Part shown: positions 1,615-5,305 of the stretch, one piece after another
Numbering within the stretch: position 1 is the first letter of the stretch
Layout: each line of letters starts with the position of its first letter
Assembly (NCBI GenBank): GCA_040752395.1
Contig: JBFMHD010000195.1
Coordinates: 1 to 5,305 of the forward strand
Source: JBFMHD01 sp040752395 [NCBI: Candidatus Hydrogenedentota bacterium]
Lineage (GTDB): Bacteria > JBFMHD01
Length of the DNA: 5,305 bases
Direction of reading: 5' to 3'
Translations under genes and position numbers: made by a program
The notes under the pieces: model-generated
Database searches by the model: none
Seen by the model: the letters and a program-made list of their open reading frames with translations, nothing else
What the model was told of the DNA's origin: nothing

Positions 1615-1644
1615 ATGAGCGCGGTTTGCGCTCTACACTATTGG

Positions 1645-1684
1645 GTTCTTGGGTTCTTGGGTTATTGCGTTTTTGGGTTTTTGC
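1645..1684 (+). repeat. Octamer tandem array GTTNTTGS, 5 units
   Basis: Five consecutive 8-nt units: GTTCTTGG, GTTCTTGG, GTTATTGC, GTTTTTGG, GTTTTTGC. A degenerate unit precedes them at 1637-1644. The array ends in GCGCTCTACAC, as does the related array at 5169-5200. Confidence 0.85.
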
Positions 1685-1724
1685 GCTCTACACAAAGCAT
1701 GAAAAACTAAAGATGATATGAAAA

Positions 1725-1755
1725 GAGTCGTGAGTCAAAACAGGACTCAAGACTC
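1725..1755 (+). terminator. GAGTC/GACTC hairpin in repeat copy 3, terminator-like
   Basis: The left arm GAGTCGTGAGTC (1725-1736) pairs with the right arm GACTCAAGACTC (1744-1755) in 11 of 12 positions around the 7-nt loop AAAACAG. AAGACTTTTC follows, giving a short T-run. It is shared with copies 1 and 4. The hairpin is seen in the sequence; termination is only a possibility because the T-run is four bases and offset. Confidence 0.4.
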
Positions 1756-1962
1756 AAGACTTTTCAGCCAGGCTTTTGGCTTCTGGCTCCAGCCGGCTGT
1801 AGTCCGTAGCCTGTAGCCTGTCCTGATACCTCTCACTTCCCACTTCTTACTTCTTACTTTTTTCGTTATCTTGCTTCTTGCTTCTTGCTTCTTTCGTTAT
1901 CTTTCTTTCCGTTATCTTGCCTCTTGCTTCTATTTGATATTATTAGAGTTAGAATGTTTTTC

Positions 1963-1971
1963 AGAGGAGAG
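1963..1971 (+). promoter_or_regulatory. Repeat-borne ribosome-binding site of rpsC
   Basis: AGAGGAGAG ends five bases before ATG 1976, a strong and well-placed Shine-Dalgarno that fixes the rpsC start. The same bases close repeat copy 1 at 182-189 (orphan), and a related GGAGAG closes copy 2 before the gene at 806. Confidence 0.85.
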
Positions 1972-1975
1972 TCTA

Positions 1976-2638
1976 ATGGGTCAGAAGGTGCCACCAAAAA
2001 TTCAGAGACTGAAAATTATTGAAGACTGGGATTCCAAATGGTATGCAAACAAAAATATCTATGCTAATTATCTTCACGAAGACATACGGATACGTGAATG
2101 GGTCAGAAAAGAGTATGGTCAGGCCGGGATATCTAAGATAGTTGTTCAGAGGTATCCGCAGTTTATAGTTATAAATATACACACAGCGAGACCTGCTATT
2201 TTAATTGGGAGAAAAGGTGCAGAGATAGAGAGGATAAGAGGATGGTTAACCAGGATAAGCGGAAAGAAGTCAGATGTCAATGTTATAGAGATAGAGAATC
2301 CTCTGCTTGATGCCCAGCTTGTAGCTGAGAGTATAGCAAGAGCATTAAAAAGAAAGATCACTTATAGAAGGGCTATGAAACAGGCTATGGGTTTAGCATT
2401 AAAAGCAGGTGCACATGGCATAAAAGTTATGTGTTCCGGCAGGCTTGGTGGTGCTGAGATTGCAAGGTCTGTCTGGTATCGAGAAGGAAGGGTACCTTTA
2501 CATACATTAAGAGCAAATATAGATTATGGCTTTTCACAATGTTTTGCTAATTATGGTGTTATCGGTGTAAAGGTATGGATTTTTAAAGGTGAAATTATAC
2601 CTAAAAAAGAGACCAGAGCCGAGTCAAAGGAAGGTTAA
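1976..2638 (+). CDS. rpsC: 30S ribosomal protein S3
   Basis: S3 binds 16S rRNA in the head of the small subunit near the mRNA entry channel. The 220-residue product opens with the family start MGQKV. A type-2 KH domain follows with its GRKG loop at 78-81 (in RPAILIGRKGAEIERI). The conserved C-terminal signature spans about 148-186, including GRLGGAEIAR and WYREGRVPLHTLRANIDYG. Length is close to the usual 210-235. The N-terminal GFRLG-like stretch common in S3 reads KIQRLKI here, a minor deviation. An ATG at 1871 in the same frame would add 35 residues of translated repeat and is rejected, because the Shine-Dalgarno and homology both mark 1976. It leads the ribosomal block; rplV, its normal upstream neighbour, is absent and repeat copy 3 is in its place. 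Confidence 0.97.
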   Translation: MGQKVPPKIQRLKIIEDWDSKWYANKNIYANYLHEDIRIREWVRKEYGQAGISKIVVQRYPQFIVINIHTARPAILIGRKGAEIERIRGWLTRISGKKSDVNVIEIENPLLDAQLVAESIARALKRKITYRRAMKQAMGLALKAGAHGIKVMCSGRLGGAEIARSVWYREGRVPLHTLRANIDYGFSQCFANYGVIGVKVWIFKGEIIPKKETRAESKEG

Positions 2639-2644
2639 GATAAG

Positions 2645-3058
2645 ATGTTATTGCCTAAAAGAGTAAAATACAGAAAAAAGCAGAAAGGCAGGATGCGGGG
2701 TAAAGCTAAACGCGGGACTGAATTACATTTTGGCGACTATGGTTTAAAAGCTATCGAAGCGAACTGGGTTACTAATAAACAGATCGAGGCTGCTCGGGTC
2801 GCTATTATGAGACATATTAAACAAATTGGTAAACTCTGGATAAAAATATTTCCGGATAAACCGATTACCAAAAAACCCTTAGAGACAAGGATGGGTAAAG
2901 GCAAAGGTAATGTTGAGGGCTGGGTCTGTGTTGTAAAGCCTGGGAGGATACTTTTTGAGCTTGCCGGGTTACCAAAAGAATCAGCTATTGAAGCATTAAG
3001 AATAGCTTCATATAAGCTACCTATCAAAACAAGGATTATCAGTGCAGGTGCATCATAA
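2645..3058 (+). CDS. rplP: 50S ribosomal protein L16
   Basis: L16 binds 23S rRNA near the A-site tRNA and the peptidyl-transferase region and is needed for late 50S assembly. The 137-residue product has the typical length and start ([19 protein letters not shown]). The basic loop [10 protein letters not shown] lies at 81-90, followed by [13 protein letters not shown] at about 93-105. It begins six bases after the rpsC stop, and AAGGAAGG (2627-2634) inside the end of rpsC serves as Shine-Dalgarno. Its TAA shares one base with the ATG of rpmC (TAATG at 3056-3060), implying translational coupling. The rpsC-rplP-rpmC order is the canonical S10-operon order. Confidence 0.97.
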
Positions 3059-3276
3059 TGTTAGCAAGAGAATTAAGAGAATTCAGCAATGATGAATTAA
3101 CTGAGAAACTGCTTGATTTTAAGAGAGAACTTTTTAATTTAAGAGTACAGCGTGTGTCAGGTGAGATTAAAAACCCGCGAAGGATTAGAGAGGTAAAAAG
3201 GACTATTGCGCGGATATTGACTATTATGAATACCCGGAAAAAGCAGGAGGCATTAAAGATTCAGAATGCAAAATAA
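3058..3276 (+). CDS. rpmC: 50S ribosomal protein L29
   Basis: L29 sits at the polypeptide exit tunnel next to L23, where nascent-chain factors dock. The 72-residue product is two helices in outline: the N-terminal [20 protein letters not shown] (about 6-25) and the family signature [16 protein letters not shown] (38-53). The length is usual. The start codon overlaps the rplP stop by one base, and the last 11 bases overlap rpsQ, so it is coupled on both sides. The residues after the signature (about 58-72) are poorly conserved in the family and contain the rpsQ ribosome-binding site. Confidence 0.96.
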
Positions 3277-3604
3277 AAAATTAAAAGTTAAACCCATAAA
3301 AAGGAAAATTTTAGAGGGTGTTATTGTTTCTGATAAAATGGATAAAACACGGGTTGTTTTAGTACAATCACGAGTTATTCATCCTCTGTATAAAAAGGTT
3401 ATAACAAAAAGAAAGAAGTATTATGCCCATGATGAGAAAAACAAGTATAAAAATGGTGATGTAGTTAAGATTATTGAATCGAGACCTATTTCGCGGCTGA
3501 AACGATGGCGAATATTAAAAAAGATTGGTGAAAGAGAAGAACCGACTCCGGTGACTGAGTTACCGGGAGGGTTAGAAGATGATACAGCAGGAATCAAGAC
3601 TTAA
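3266..3604 (+). CDS. rpsQ: 30S ribosomal protein S17, C-terminally extended
   Basis: S17 is a primary 16S rRNA-binding protein of the 30S body (OB fold). Conserved elements are [14 protein letters not shown] (about 18-31), the HPLYKK region (39-44), and [18 protein letters not shown] (64-81). The family core ends near residue 87, giving the usual 80-90-residue protein. Here about 25 further residues follow, rich in Pro, Glu and Gly. The extension ends at TAA 3602-3604 and overlaps rplN by 26 nt, so that its codons also hold the rplN Shine-Dalgarno. The ATG at 3266 overlaps rpmC by 11 nt; GGAGG (3246-3250) lies 15 nt upstream, a rather long spacing, but an in-frame stop at 3254 rules out an earlier start. 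Confidence 0.95.
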
Positions 3605-3947
3605 CGTGGCTGATAATACTGGTGTAAAAGAGATCAGCTGTATTAGAATCCCTAAATATTCTAAACGCAGATATGCAACTATTGGTGATATTATTATCGC
3701 ATCAGTCAAGGATGCTGTACCAACTTCAAATATTAAAAAGGGTTCGATAGTCAAAGCTGTCATTGTGAGAACTAAACGAGGATTGAGGAGAAGAGATGGA
3801 ACATACATTAAATTTGATAATAATGCTGCAGTGTTAATACAGGATGACGGGACGCCTATTGGAACAAGGATATTTGGTCCTATTGCAAGAGAATTAAGAG
3901 AAAAAGAGTTTATGAAGATAGTTTCATTAGCACCTGAGGTGCTCTGA
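3579..3947 (+). CDS. rplN: 50S ribosomal protein L14
   Basis: L14 binds 23S rRNA at the subunit interface, contributes to a bridge to 16S rRNA, and is the docking site of the silencing factor RsfS in bacteria that have it. The 122-residue product matches the family end to end: [19 protein letters not shown] at the start, [20 protein letters not shown] (64-83), [13 protein letters not shown] (89-101), and the invariant end SLAPEVL. GGGAGG (3565-3570) gives a strong Shine-Dalgarno 8 nt before the ATG, within the rpsQ extension. The codons for LAPEVL form a hairpin (3929-3943), discussed with rplX. Confidence 0.97.
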
Positions 3948-3955
3948 TGGGGTAA
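3947..3955 (+). other. Two-codon frame ATG GGG TAA ahead of rplX
   Basis: The rplN stop overlaps an ATG (TGATG, 3945-3949). That ATG has a well-placed GAGGTG Shine-Dalgarno (3936-3941) and is in frame with rplX, but the third codon is TAA. Translation would have to restart at ATG 3959. It may be the former rplX start cut off by a nonsense change, or a coupling device; chance is not excluded. Confidence 0.35.
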
Positions 3956-3958
3956 CAG

Positions 3959-4282
3959 ATGACAGGTTTATTTGTTAAGAAAGGCGATACTGTAAAAATT
4001 TTATCTGGTAAAGACAAAGGGAAAACAGGTAAAATTTTGAGAGCATTTCCTAAACAGGGCAGACTTATTGTTGAACATATTAATTTTCAGAAAAAGCATC
4101 AGCGACCAACTCGTGATAATCCTAAAGGTGGGATATTAGAAAAAGAGGGACCTATTTATGCAGCAAAAGTAATGGTGATATGCCCAAACTGTAGTAAACC
4201 CACACGGATAAGCAGAAGATTTTTAGCTGATGGTAGAAAAGTAAGATACTGCAGGAAATGTAAAGAAGATATTGATAAATGA
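3959..4282 (+). CDS. rplX: 50S ribosomal protein L24
   Basis: L24 is an assembly-initiating 23S rRNA-binding protein near the exit tunnel. The 107-residue product has the KOW motif near the N-terminus (VKKGDTVKILSGKDKGKTGK, 6-25), the central basic region with HINFQKKHQRPT (40-51), and EGPIYAAKVMVICP at 63-76. A C-terminal zinc-ribbon pattern follows: Cys 75 and 78 (CPNC), then Cys 98 and 101 (CRKC). All four cysteines are kept, as in many bacterial L24 proteins. The length is typical. The start at 3959 follows a GGGG run (3949-3952); an upstream in-frame ATG at 3947 is interrupted by TAA. Gene order rplN-rplX-rplE is that of the spc operon. Confidence 0.96.
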   Translation: MTGLFVKKGDTVKILSGKDKGKTGKILRAFPKQGRLIVEHINFQKKHQRPTRDNPKGGILEKEGPIYAAKVMVICPNCSKPTRISRRFLADGRKVRYCRKCKEDIDK

Positions 4283-4310
4283 GAAAAGGATGAAAAACAA
4301 GGAGATGTAA

Positions 4311-4871
4311 ATGGTTGCGAAGAAGTATGTGCCGAGAATAAAGAAAAAATATTATGAGGAAGTAGTACCAGAACTAAAAAAAAGGTTAAAAAGAGAGAAC
4401 GTGTTATCTTTACCGAGGTTGAAGAAGATAGTTGTAAATATGGGTGTTGGCGATGCGTTAAAAGACCCAAAAACTCTTGATGGAGCCATGAAAGATTTAA
4501 GAGATATAACAGGTCAACAACCGATTATAACGCGTGCCAAAAAATCAGTATCTAATTTTAAACTGCGAGCGGGTCAATCCATAGGTTGCTGTGTCACACT
4601 TACAGGGAATAAGATGTATGAGTTTTTTGATAGATTTGTAAATTTTGCGATACCTCGAATCAGGGATTTTAAAGGATTGGACCCGAAAAGTTTTGATAAG
4701 AGAGGGAATTATAATTTAGGGATTAAAGAGCAAACGATTTTTCCTGAGGTTTCTTATGATTCTATTTACAAAATAAGAGGTATGGATGTGGCAGTTGTTA
4801 CTTCGAGTGATAAGGATGGCGAAGCAATGCTTCTTCTTGCTCTTTTAGGGTTCCCCTTTAAAAAAACGTAA
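4311..4871 (+). CDS. rplE: 50S ribosomal protein L5
   Basis: L5 binds 5S rRNA and holds it in the central protuberance, contacting P-site tRNA and S13. The 186-residue product is slightly longer than the common 179. It shows the signature LPRLKKIVVNMGVGDA (34-49), GQQPIITRAKKSVSNFKLR (68-86), a GxCVTLTGxxMYEF segment (92-105), and FPEVSYDSIYKIRGMDVAVVT (144-164). The ending LLGFPF is also typical. The ATG at 4311 has AAGGAG (4299-4304) six bases before it. The RG usually found in the VTLRG segment is TG here, a mild variation. It is followed by the largest gap in the block (69 nt), which contains an inverted repeat scrap. Confidence 0.96.
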   Translation: MVAKKYVPRIKKKYYEEVVPELKKRLKRENVLSLPRLKKIVVNMGVGDALKDPKTLDGAMKDLRDITGQQPIITRAKKSVSNFKLRAGQSIGCCVTLTGNKMYEFFDRFVNFAIPRIRDFKGLDPKSFDKRGNYNLGIKEQTIFPEVSYDSIYKIRGMDVAVVTSSDKDGEAMLLLALLGFPFKKT

Positions 4872-4893
4872 TTCATCACTTAGAGGTGAGATT

Positions 4894-4907
4894 AAGAAGT
4901 AAGAAGT
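4894..4907 (-). repeat. Inverted ACTTCTT heptamer scrap between rplE and rpsZ
   Basis: AAGAAGTAAGAAGT is the exact reverse complement of the 14-nt ACTTCTTACTTCTT stretch in repeat copy 3 (1842-1855). It lies in the only sizeable gap of the ribosomal block, between a Shine-Dalgarno-like AGAGGTGAG (4882-4890) and the rpsZ start, and may have pushed that site away from the start codon. Confidence 0.6.
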
Positions 4908-4940
4908 TCGAGGTGGAAAGAAGTAGGAATTATAAACATT

Positions 4941-5126
4941 ATGTCAACAACAGCAAAAATGGCTAAATTAAGAAAGAAACCTAAATTTAAAATCCGACAT
5001 CATAACAGATGTCCCATCTGTGGTCGTGCTCGCGGCTATATACGTAGATTTAATATGTGTCGTCTTTGTTTCAGAGAGATGGCTCATCGAGGCTTTATAC
5101 CAGGTGTAGTAAAGGCAAGCTGGTGA
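4941..5126 (+). CDS. rpsZ: 30S ribosomal protein S14, zinc-binding type (S14Z)
   Basis: S14 assembles late into the 30S head and contacts S3 and S10 rRNA neighbourhoods. The product has the usual 61 residues of the zinc form: Cys 24 and 27 (RCPICGR), Cys 40 and 43 (MCRLCFRE), and the standard ending [11 protein letters not shown]. All four zinc ligands are present. The start at 4941 gives the family length, although no Shine-Dalgarno is ideal: GAGGTGG (4910-4916) is 24 nt away and AGTAGG (4922-4927) is weak. The ATG at 4959 ([10 protein letters not shown]) would shorten the basic N-terminus and is less likely. In the spc operon rpsH normally follows; here 179 nt to the window end hold only repeat. 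Confidence 0.95.
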
Positions 5127-5136
5127 GTTATATTTA

Positions 5137-5157
5137 GAGGCAAGAGGCAAGATAACG
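5137..5157 (-). repeat. Inverted CGTTATC-TTGCCTC scrap after rpsZ
   Basis: Read on the minus strand it is CGTTATC followed by two TTGCCTC heptamers. Eighteen bases (5140-5157) are a perfect inverted match to 1910-1927 in repeat copy 3, so the ribosomal block is bracketed by inverted copies of this module. It begins 10 nt after the rpsZ stop. Confidence 0.75.
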
Positions 5158-5168
5158 ATATTTCTTGC

Positions 5169-5305
5169 GTTATTGGGTTATTGCGTTTTTGCGTTCTTGC
5201 GCTCTACACAATATATGAAAAACTAAAGATGATATGAAAAGAGTCGTGAGTCAAAACAGGACTCGAGACTCAAGACTCAAGACTTTTCAGCAGGCTTTTG
5301 GCTTT
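5169..5305 (+). repeat. Dispersed mosaic repeat, copy 4 (3' end cut by window)
   Basis: It starts with the octamer array GTTATTGG, GTTATTGC, GTTTTTGC, GTTCTTGC (5169-5200), then GCGCTCTACAC (5199-5209) and an A-rich spacer nearly identical to that of copy 3 (5213-5240). The GAGTC/GACTC hairpin follows (5241-5271), then GACTCAA heptamers and TTTTCAGCAGGCTTTTGGCTT, where the window stops. Its direct orientation and sequence match copies 1 and 3; whether it too ends in a Shine-Dalgarno before a gene such as rpsH cannot be seen. Confidence 0.88.
5241..5271 (+). terminator. GAGTC/GACTC hairpin in repeat copy 4, terminator-like
   Basis: Arms GAGTCGTGAGTC (5241-5252) and GACTCGAGACTC (5260-5271) pair around the loop AAAACAG, with one mismatch and one G-T pair at the centre. 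The loop is identical to that in copy 3. It lies 115 nt after the rpsZ stop and could end the ribosomal transcript, but only a short T-run follows, after a further heptamer. Confidence 0.35.

Follow-up and report, generated by a model that had tools for sequence, protein, structure and literature searches.

Dispersed intergenic tracts of drifting seven-base words in a bacterial contig with ribosomal protein genes

The stretch of DNA analysed here (5,305 nucleotides, hereafter the window) carries four related copies of a repeat at 1-189, 681-801, about 1629-1970 and about 5162-5305, all on the plus strand, which agrees with the places given for them in the original prediction and bears out the dispersed and non-coding nature claimed there. 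On balance, we favour the reading of this element as a dispersed heptad tract that grows by 7-nt slippage in operon gaps, and hence as a variant of the known heptameric repeats. In such a tract, one 7-nt register would run through most of about 200 nt while successive units carry slowly changing words (TCAAGAC, TCTGGCT, CCTGTAG, TCTTACT, TCTTGCY). Similar tracts, mostly made of other words, are common in the gaps between genes in a distant genome, and this suggests a scarcely described type of repeat that lengthens by seven bases at a time.

The genes of the window are secG (297-614), an ORF at 806-1357 that starts with the ATG at 806, and the run rpsC, rplP, rpmC, rpsQ, rplN, rplX, rplE and rpsN (1976-5126), where rpsC, coding for ribosomal protein S3 (1976-2638, plus strand), lies directly 3' of copy 3. 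The names of rplN and rplX derive from gene order and from matches to proteins of rpsC loci, and not from a Pfam scan. For the ORF at 806-1357, searches against Pfam (E 0.1) gave no family and those against NCBIfam no match above E 0.38, and a short ORF at 1440-1550 matched neither collection. The eight ribosomal proteins of the window were 45-71% identical to those of the best six of 80 rpsC loci, and the best identity of its S3 to that of other bacteria was 57% among the matches listed. The genes rpsS and rplV usually precede rpsC. Here, the region upstream of rpsC (614-1976, bordered by secG) contains both ORFs and repeat copies and lacks rpsS and rplV, so that copy 3 seems to interrupt the ribosomal operon. 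The contig itself starts and stops within repeat copies (1-60 and 5240-5305), which suggests that the source genome holds further copies. These two features, the contig ends and the unusual left neighbourhood of rpsC, could also stem from a chimera or another assembly artefact caused by short repeats in metagenome data. We regard such an artefact as very improbable, given that the copies differ in sequence and unit number, as is not expected from a duplicated assembly artefact, and that comparable tracts are present in another assembly (G245, see below).

Copy 3 is the sole complete copy, with an approximate 5' boundary, and Tandem Repeats Finder recovered the octamer and heptamer arrays at the positions predicted. 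On the plus strand it consists of an octamer array (GGGTTCTT-like, 1641-1690, lag-8 identity 0.81), a GACTCAA array (1744-1761), a degenerate array GGCTTTT GGCTTCT GGCTCC (1771-1790) that the original prediction had overlooked, a GTAGCCT array (1806-1821), an ACTTCTY array of five units (1828-1862), and a stretch (1864-1930) with CGTTATC units at 1864, 1895 and 1910 and TTGCYTC units at 1871-1891 and 1917-1930. Copy 3 thus holds at least six heptamer words and one octamer. Its three CGTTATC units are spaced by 31 and 15 nt and are therefore off the heptad step. The arrays are followed by an AT-rich, non-periodic tail (1931-1970), common to copies 1 to 3, with a Shine-Dalgarno-like end. The pyrimidine-rich strand is the sense strand, with an A+G fraction of 0.17 over 1826-1932.

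Exact period-7 runs of at least 16 nt were found eight times in the 5.3-kb window. Across 200 dinucleotide shuffles of the same sequence the mean was 0.04 and the maximum 1 run, and 80 control rpsC loci from other genomes yielded 15 runs in 778,135 nt (0.10 per 5.3 kb); since the window far exceeds both, chance was excluded as the source of the repeat. The spacers between the six arrays had been described as non-repetitive, a view that had to be abandoned because the main one (1759-1808) is itself heptamer-periodic and includes the array at 1771-1790. Its lag-7 identity was 0.49 compared to 0.26 in shuffles (p 0.001), with values of 0.12-0.20 at lags 5, 6, 8 and 9; lags 4 and 10 gave 0.30 and 0.33, respectively. 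The matching spacer in copy 1 reached 0.40 compared to 0.25 (p 0.026), and positions 681-737 of copy 2 gave a lag-7 identity above all 2,000 shuffles. No 7-periodicity was detected in the stretch 1693-1743 (p 0.24) or in the tail at 1931-1971 (lag-7 p 0.80). When copy 3 was written in lines of seven, the register crossed the module borders (TCAAGAC, TTTGGCT, TCTGGCT, CCTGTAG, TCTCACT, TCTTACT). Over 1730-1932, lags of 7, 14, 21 and 28 nt gave self-matches of 0.571, 0.487, 0.418 and 0.389, respectively, and this decrease with distance argues for stepwise duplication and drift, since the similarity of a repeated binding site would stay level.

According to the reading that we favour, tracts would grow and shrink by local seven-base duplication and deletion (slipped-strand mispairing), and point changes would then fix new words within them. 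Finished tracts may be copied to other gaps as whole units, perhaps by recombination, which would result in a constant module order. The gaps involved lie between co-oriented genes, where tracts are probably transcribed and may be tolerated or favoured.

The single fixed order of modules that had been claimed for the four copies was never contradicted by any of them, but all modules occur in copy 3 only, so that with one complete and three partial copies a fixed order is unproven. Copies 1 and 4 are incomplete because the contig ends cut them: copy 1, truncated by the contig start, has no octamer, and copy 4 lacks everything past GGCTTTT. Copy 2 is a divergent remnant with degenerate words on its left-hand side, one GTAGCCT-like stretch, an ACTTCTY array and the tail, and without GACTCAA, CGTTATC or TTGCYTC arrays; its array content is very different from that of copy 3. 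Copies 1 and 3 share a perfectly matching stretch of 43 nt and two further stretches, of 71 and 56 nt, at 92% and 95% identity, and a 116-nt stretch of copy 3 recurs in copy 4 at 93% identity. Whole-unit differences between copies were observed in the ACTTCTY array (2 units in copy 1, 4 in copy 2 and 5 in copy 3) and in copy 4, which has one additional GACTCGA heptamer, and copies 1 and 3 also differ by one single-base indel. Two inverted solo pieces on the minus strand had escaped the original prediction: an ACTTCTT-type piece (AAGAAGT, 4893-4928) in the rplE-rpsN gap, and a CGTTATC-TTGCCTC piece (AGAGGCA..ATAACG, 5135-5157) directly before copy 4.

Near-identical copies at separate places, inverted fragments nearby, and four copies within 5.3 kb with both contig ends inside copies are also what would be expected of a non-autonomous mobile element (MITE- or REPIN-like) that happens to contain heptamer VNTRs and whose movement depends on a transposase gene located elsewhere. 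REP/REPIN elements are short palindromes moved by a RAYT (Y1) transposase. The left part of the element is predicted to form a hairpin: the fold of 1728-1830 in copy 3 had a z of -2.48 and that of the matching part of copy 1 a z of -2.44, and a candidate hairpin built of heptads, with GGCT words against AGCC words, lies at 1769-1820 on the plus strand (z -2.71). However, a search for terminal inverted repeats at lengths of 12 and 15 nt (80% identity) gave none, the closest approach to inverted ends being two overlapping 10-nt pairs with 8 matches, and the best candidate for a target-site duplication was 4 nt long, with the 5' boundary of the element being uncertain. These results are in line with the claim that the element is unlike a standard IS or MITE. 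It also differs from CRISPR arrays, in which identical repeats alternate with unique spacers of similar length, because its units run head-to-tail without spacers. Furthermore, the whole element was matched neither in Rfam at the gathering score (the only sub-threshold similarity was to mir-737, 27.9 vs 60 bits, at 1665-1718) nor in phage records, where nothing similar was found, nor in plasmid records. Taken with the points on both sides, a mobile element of this kind seems unlikely to us.

The only plasmid record retrieved shared the octamer alone. In this Vibrio parahaemolyticus record (L107), a long GGGTTATT octamer array that resembles the octamer of the window lies at 1493-1600 beside clpX. 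The exact pattern of GACTCAA plus GTAGCCT-type arrays had no match in contigs of one genome per species from 84,980 species, and a 25-mer from one module junction had none in viral contigs, where the CGTTATC-TTGCYTC pattern was found at a single locus (L101, a 20-nt exact match). In viral contigs, words of the window occurred at 7, 6, 10 and 7 independent places, where the final count was obtained with a more stringent 21-mer, and two shuffled control words at 5 and 10 places; recurrence of these words in unrelated phages is thus not special, and a universal word list was rejected. Among the viral loci, L120 (1228-1245) carries TTGCCTC together with an AACCGAC unit, with two heptamer arrays within 300 nt of the match, and L094 (683-700) carries GTAGCCT with an AATGGGC unit and an octamer within the same distance. 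In a phage family that comprises L109 and 21 viral loci related to it, a short TTGCCTC array is retained at a constant position; 17 of these 22 loci come from records numbered 3300037xxx.

When positions 1640-1971 were compared with whole genomes, 9 of 395 from the phylum of G003 (a MAG titled Deltaproteobacteria) and 2 of 57 from the phylum of G001 had partial matches, and none was obtained in 299 genomes from the phylum of G002 or in another set of 16; two of these genome sets are samples of larger groups. The phylum of G002 also contains G012, a Rhodospirillaceae record, so that G002 probably does not belong to Marinimicrobia, despite its title. The matches were to the octamer, to ACTTCTY or, with 71-82% identity, to portions of the adjacent ACTTCTY-TTGCYTC region, and in the genomes searched none covered the full-length element.

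In copy 3, the final AGAGGAGA (1963-1970) lies 5 nt before the rpsC ATG at 1976, and in copy 2 GGAGAG at 795-800 lies 5 nt before the ATG of the ORF at 806. Since copies 2 and 3 thus supply, at their 3' ends, the Shine-Dalgarno sequence of the gene that follows, a tract may serve in the mRNA as a leader or as a spacer between cistrons and could in this way affect the mRNA. A stronger proposal is that of a regulatory mRNA leader, whose arrays would either bind a repeat-recognising protein (S1, Csp or a helical-repeat protein) or make the Shine-Dalgarno sequence inaccessible, the number of units tuning translation of the downstream gene. It would agree with the exact stop of both copies at this sequence, with the pyrimidine-rich sense strand, and with the similar placement of the TAACTGA repeats of Beggiatoaceae, ribosomal operons included, as described in PMC4679880. 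The arrays also raised the predicted pairing of the Shine-Dalgarno sequence over that of the tail alone, from 0.36 to 0.82 in copy 3 and from 0.41 to 0.87 in copy 2. However, shuffled arrays raised it equally (0.90-0.93 and 0.85-0.87, respectively), and masking by the specific arrays was consequently rejected. Copy 1 also ends with AGAGGAGA (182-189) without a start codon at translation distance, so this end appears to travel with the element. Considering in addition the decay of similarity with distance, unlike that of a fixed site, and the great difference between the arrays of copies 2 and 3, a regulatory leader is in our opinion improbable. With respect to transcription termination, intrinsic-terminator-like sites (a GC stem followed by a T run) numbered 3 in the window and 2.8 in shuffles; none was found on the plus strand of any copy, and two sites lie on the minus strand of copies 3 and 4.

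Among five matched genomes that were searched again, G245 had the most matches (63). As G245 was selected for its similarity to the arrays of the window, its richness in tracts is not typical and the comparison of words is biased. It contained 148 period-7 tracts in 640,897 nt (L203-L222, L243-L262), of which 109 were in 347,045 nt chosen around matches and 39 in 293,852 nt of other contigs, compared to at most 5 (match regions) and 3 (other contigs) tracts for each other period from 4 to 12, and 30 for the eight periods together. In 20 sampled genomes of the same phylum, 277,229 nt contained 6 tracts, which were spread over 3 of these genomes, and 337,257 nt of 20 other genomes contained no period-7 tract. 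A 5.7-kb contig (L273, from G083) carries four tracts (170-221, 2247-2317, 3785-3838 and 4078-4135), three of them with words close to those of a G245 family.

The tracts of G245 are made of several drifting words each, and in some of them a purine-rich arm is followed by an A-rich centre and then by an arm rich in pyrimidines. They group into families of 38, 16 and 9 members and three of 2, with 79 single tracts, and the three large families point to dispersal, or copying, as units. The view that several heptamer species in one locus would be without parallel is not supported, given these many multi-word tracts with their dispersed families; a few viral contigs, too, have two heptamer families within 300 nt. 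In the 68 G245 tracts of at least 80 nt, the self-match at successive 7-nt lags was 0.643, 0.580, 0.505 and 0.436, close to the decay in the window, although the lag-7 identity is raised by the detection rule itself. Four of nine window words tested occurred as tandem units in the G245 stretches, with ACTTCTT, TTGCTTC, TTGCCTC and GGCTTCT (2, 15, 16 and 4 runs) ranking first among their permutations, and GACTCAA, GTAGCCT, ACTTCTC, CGTTATC and GGCTTTT were absent as such units. The S3 proteins of the window and G245 are 54% identical, which indicates that G245 is not a close relative, and an independent origin of the tracts in both is as likely as common descent.

Regarding their position, 73 of the 82 G245 tracts placed outside ORFs lie between co-oriented genes, compared to 242 of 309 gaps of at least 60 nt (pooled Fisher p 0.005 in a test that treats each tract as having its own gap; p 0.16 in the match regions alone and p 0.025 in the other contigs). 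ORF calling in G245 was crude, with about half of the tract bases overlapping an ATG ORF of at least 120 aa, and 66 of the 148 tracts were not placeable in a gap. In the co-oriented cases (53 in match regions and 20 in other contigs), tracts began at the stop codon, with medians of -6 and -0.5 nt, respectively, and the distance from their end to the ATG of the following ORF had medians of 11 and 18.5 nt. A Shine-Dalgarno sequence plus ATG was found beside 17 of 296 tract edges compared to 533 of 16,000, a weak 1.7-fold excess. A scan of five G245 stretches against Rfam gave only tRNA at threshold.

Another possibility is that intercistronic RNA hairpins built of heptads are selected, for protection of 3' ends or for uncoupling of neighbouring genes, with the period as a by-product of arm copying. 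In 80% of the 98 G245 tracts of at least 70 nt, the two halves of a tract paired better with each other than halves of other tracts did at the median, compared to 47% of random windows, and a rank of 0.05 or better was reached by 17% of tracts and 1% of random windows. The purine-first layout, by at least 0.2, was observed in 36 of the 148 tracts and its reverse in 4 (random windows, 16 and 10), and the fold z was below -2 in 56 of 148; the candidate hairpin at 1769-1820 of the window is likewise in agreement. On the other hand, 92 of the 148 tracts fell short of this z, and no enrichment between convergent genes was observed in G245. In the window, a fold of the whole element was rejected, since full copy 3 folded no better than its shuffles (z -0.37); in a separate folding analysis the core of copy 3 had a z of -1.77 and copy 2 one of 0.91, in the comparison mentioned above copies 2 and 4 gave 0.16 and 0.72 (copy 4 end), and the predicted structures differ between copies 1 and 3. 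We therefore hold selected hairpins to be an unlikely explanation.

A broader version of the favoured reading would have the tracts as a general bacterial class in distant lineages, generated by a dedicated copying activity in seven-base steps and kept as intercistronic RNA parts of operons. The enzyme in question, a polymerase or reverse transcriptase, would realign after each 7 nt and change to the other strand in order to produce the second arm. We consider this version rather doubtful. In tracts that strictly maintain the 7-nt step while the word changes, step and sequence can be separated, and the alternatives of a polymerase step, selection and a machine become testable. If such tracts fill many operon gaps, they would be relevant to transcript structure, spurious gene calls and fragmented assemblies.

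Heptamers are reported to be the most abundant longer simple repeats in most genomes surveyed, and polymerase slippage or a 7-nt interaction of the polymerase has only been proposed as their cause (Mrazek 2007, cited in PMC4679880). A subset of repeats of 6-9 bp is enriched in prokaryotic phyla, as reported in PMC12699852. Drifting multi-word heptad tracts were found described in no publication at the level of titles and the beginning of abstracts, in a literature set with few subscription papers, nor did they appear in the texts consulted on related repeats, PMC4853749 among them. The proposed resemblance to heptameric STRR-type repeats was confirmed as far as 7-nt tandem units between genes, above chance, are concerned, and the cyanobacterial STRR share with the window the hairpin capacity of such units, as described in PMC2670836 and PMC4692102. 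These sources present fixed words for the cyanobacterial STRR, three Calothrix heptamers included, whereas the element of the window is a dispersed composite of drifting words; the one fixed word per locus by which STRR/LSSR are recognised is not what copy 3 contains. The GGGNATC heptamers of Xanthomonas and Nostoc are likewise widespread, non-coding and preferentially located between aligned ORFs, but, in the account of PMC4692102, they are of one word type and form G-quadruplexes, and the words of the window have no such G-tracts except for the GGG of the octamer.

Dispersed multicopy tandem heptamers and octamers are also known from Geobacter metallireducens, including Gmet_H4 and the classes of global-regulator sites, which are mostly pairs on opposite strands (PMC2700814). 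As presented there, these elements have one consensus per family and no run of several words, unlike the window. The tandem repeats of archaeal Borgs are fast-evolving, partly intergenic and break assemblies, in common with the present element, but they are described in PMC9879509 as perfect copies of varied unit length, about half of them in ORFs, whereas here the copies are imperfect and mainly of period 7. The TAACTGA direct repeats of marine Beggiatoaceae, located close to start codons and also within ribosomal operons, share several features with the element: a heptamer unit, an intergenic position close upstream of starts, an association with ribosomal-protein operons and no evident mechanism of transmission, as far as described in PMC4679880. 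According to the same source, they consist of one word, related heptamers being rarely repeated, whereas the element of the window is dispersed and made up of many drifting words.
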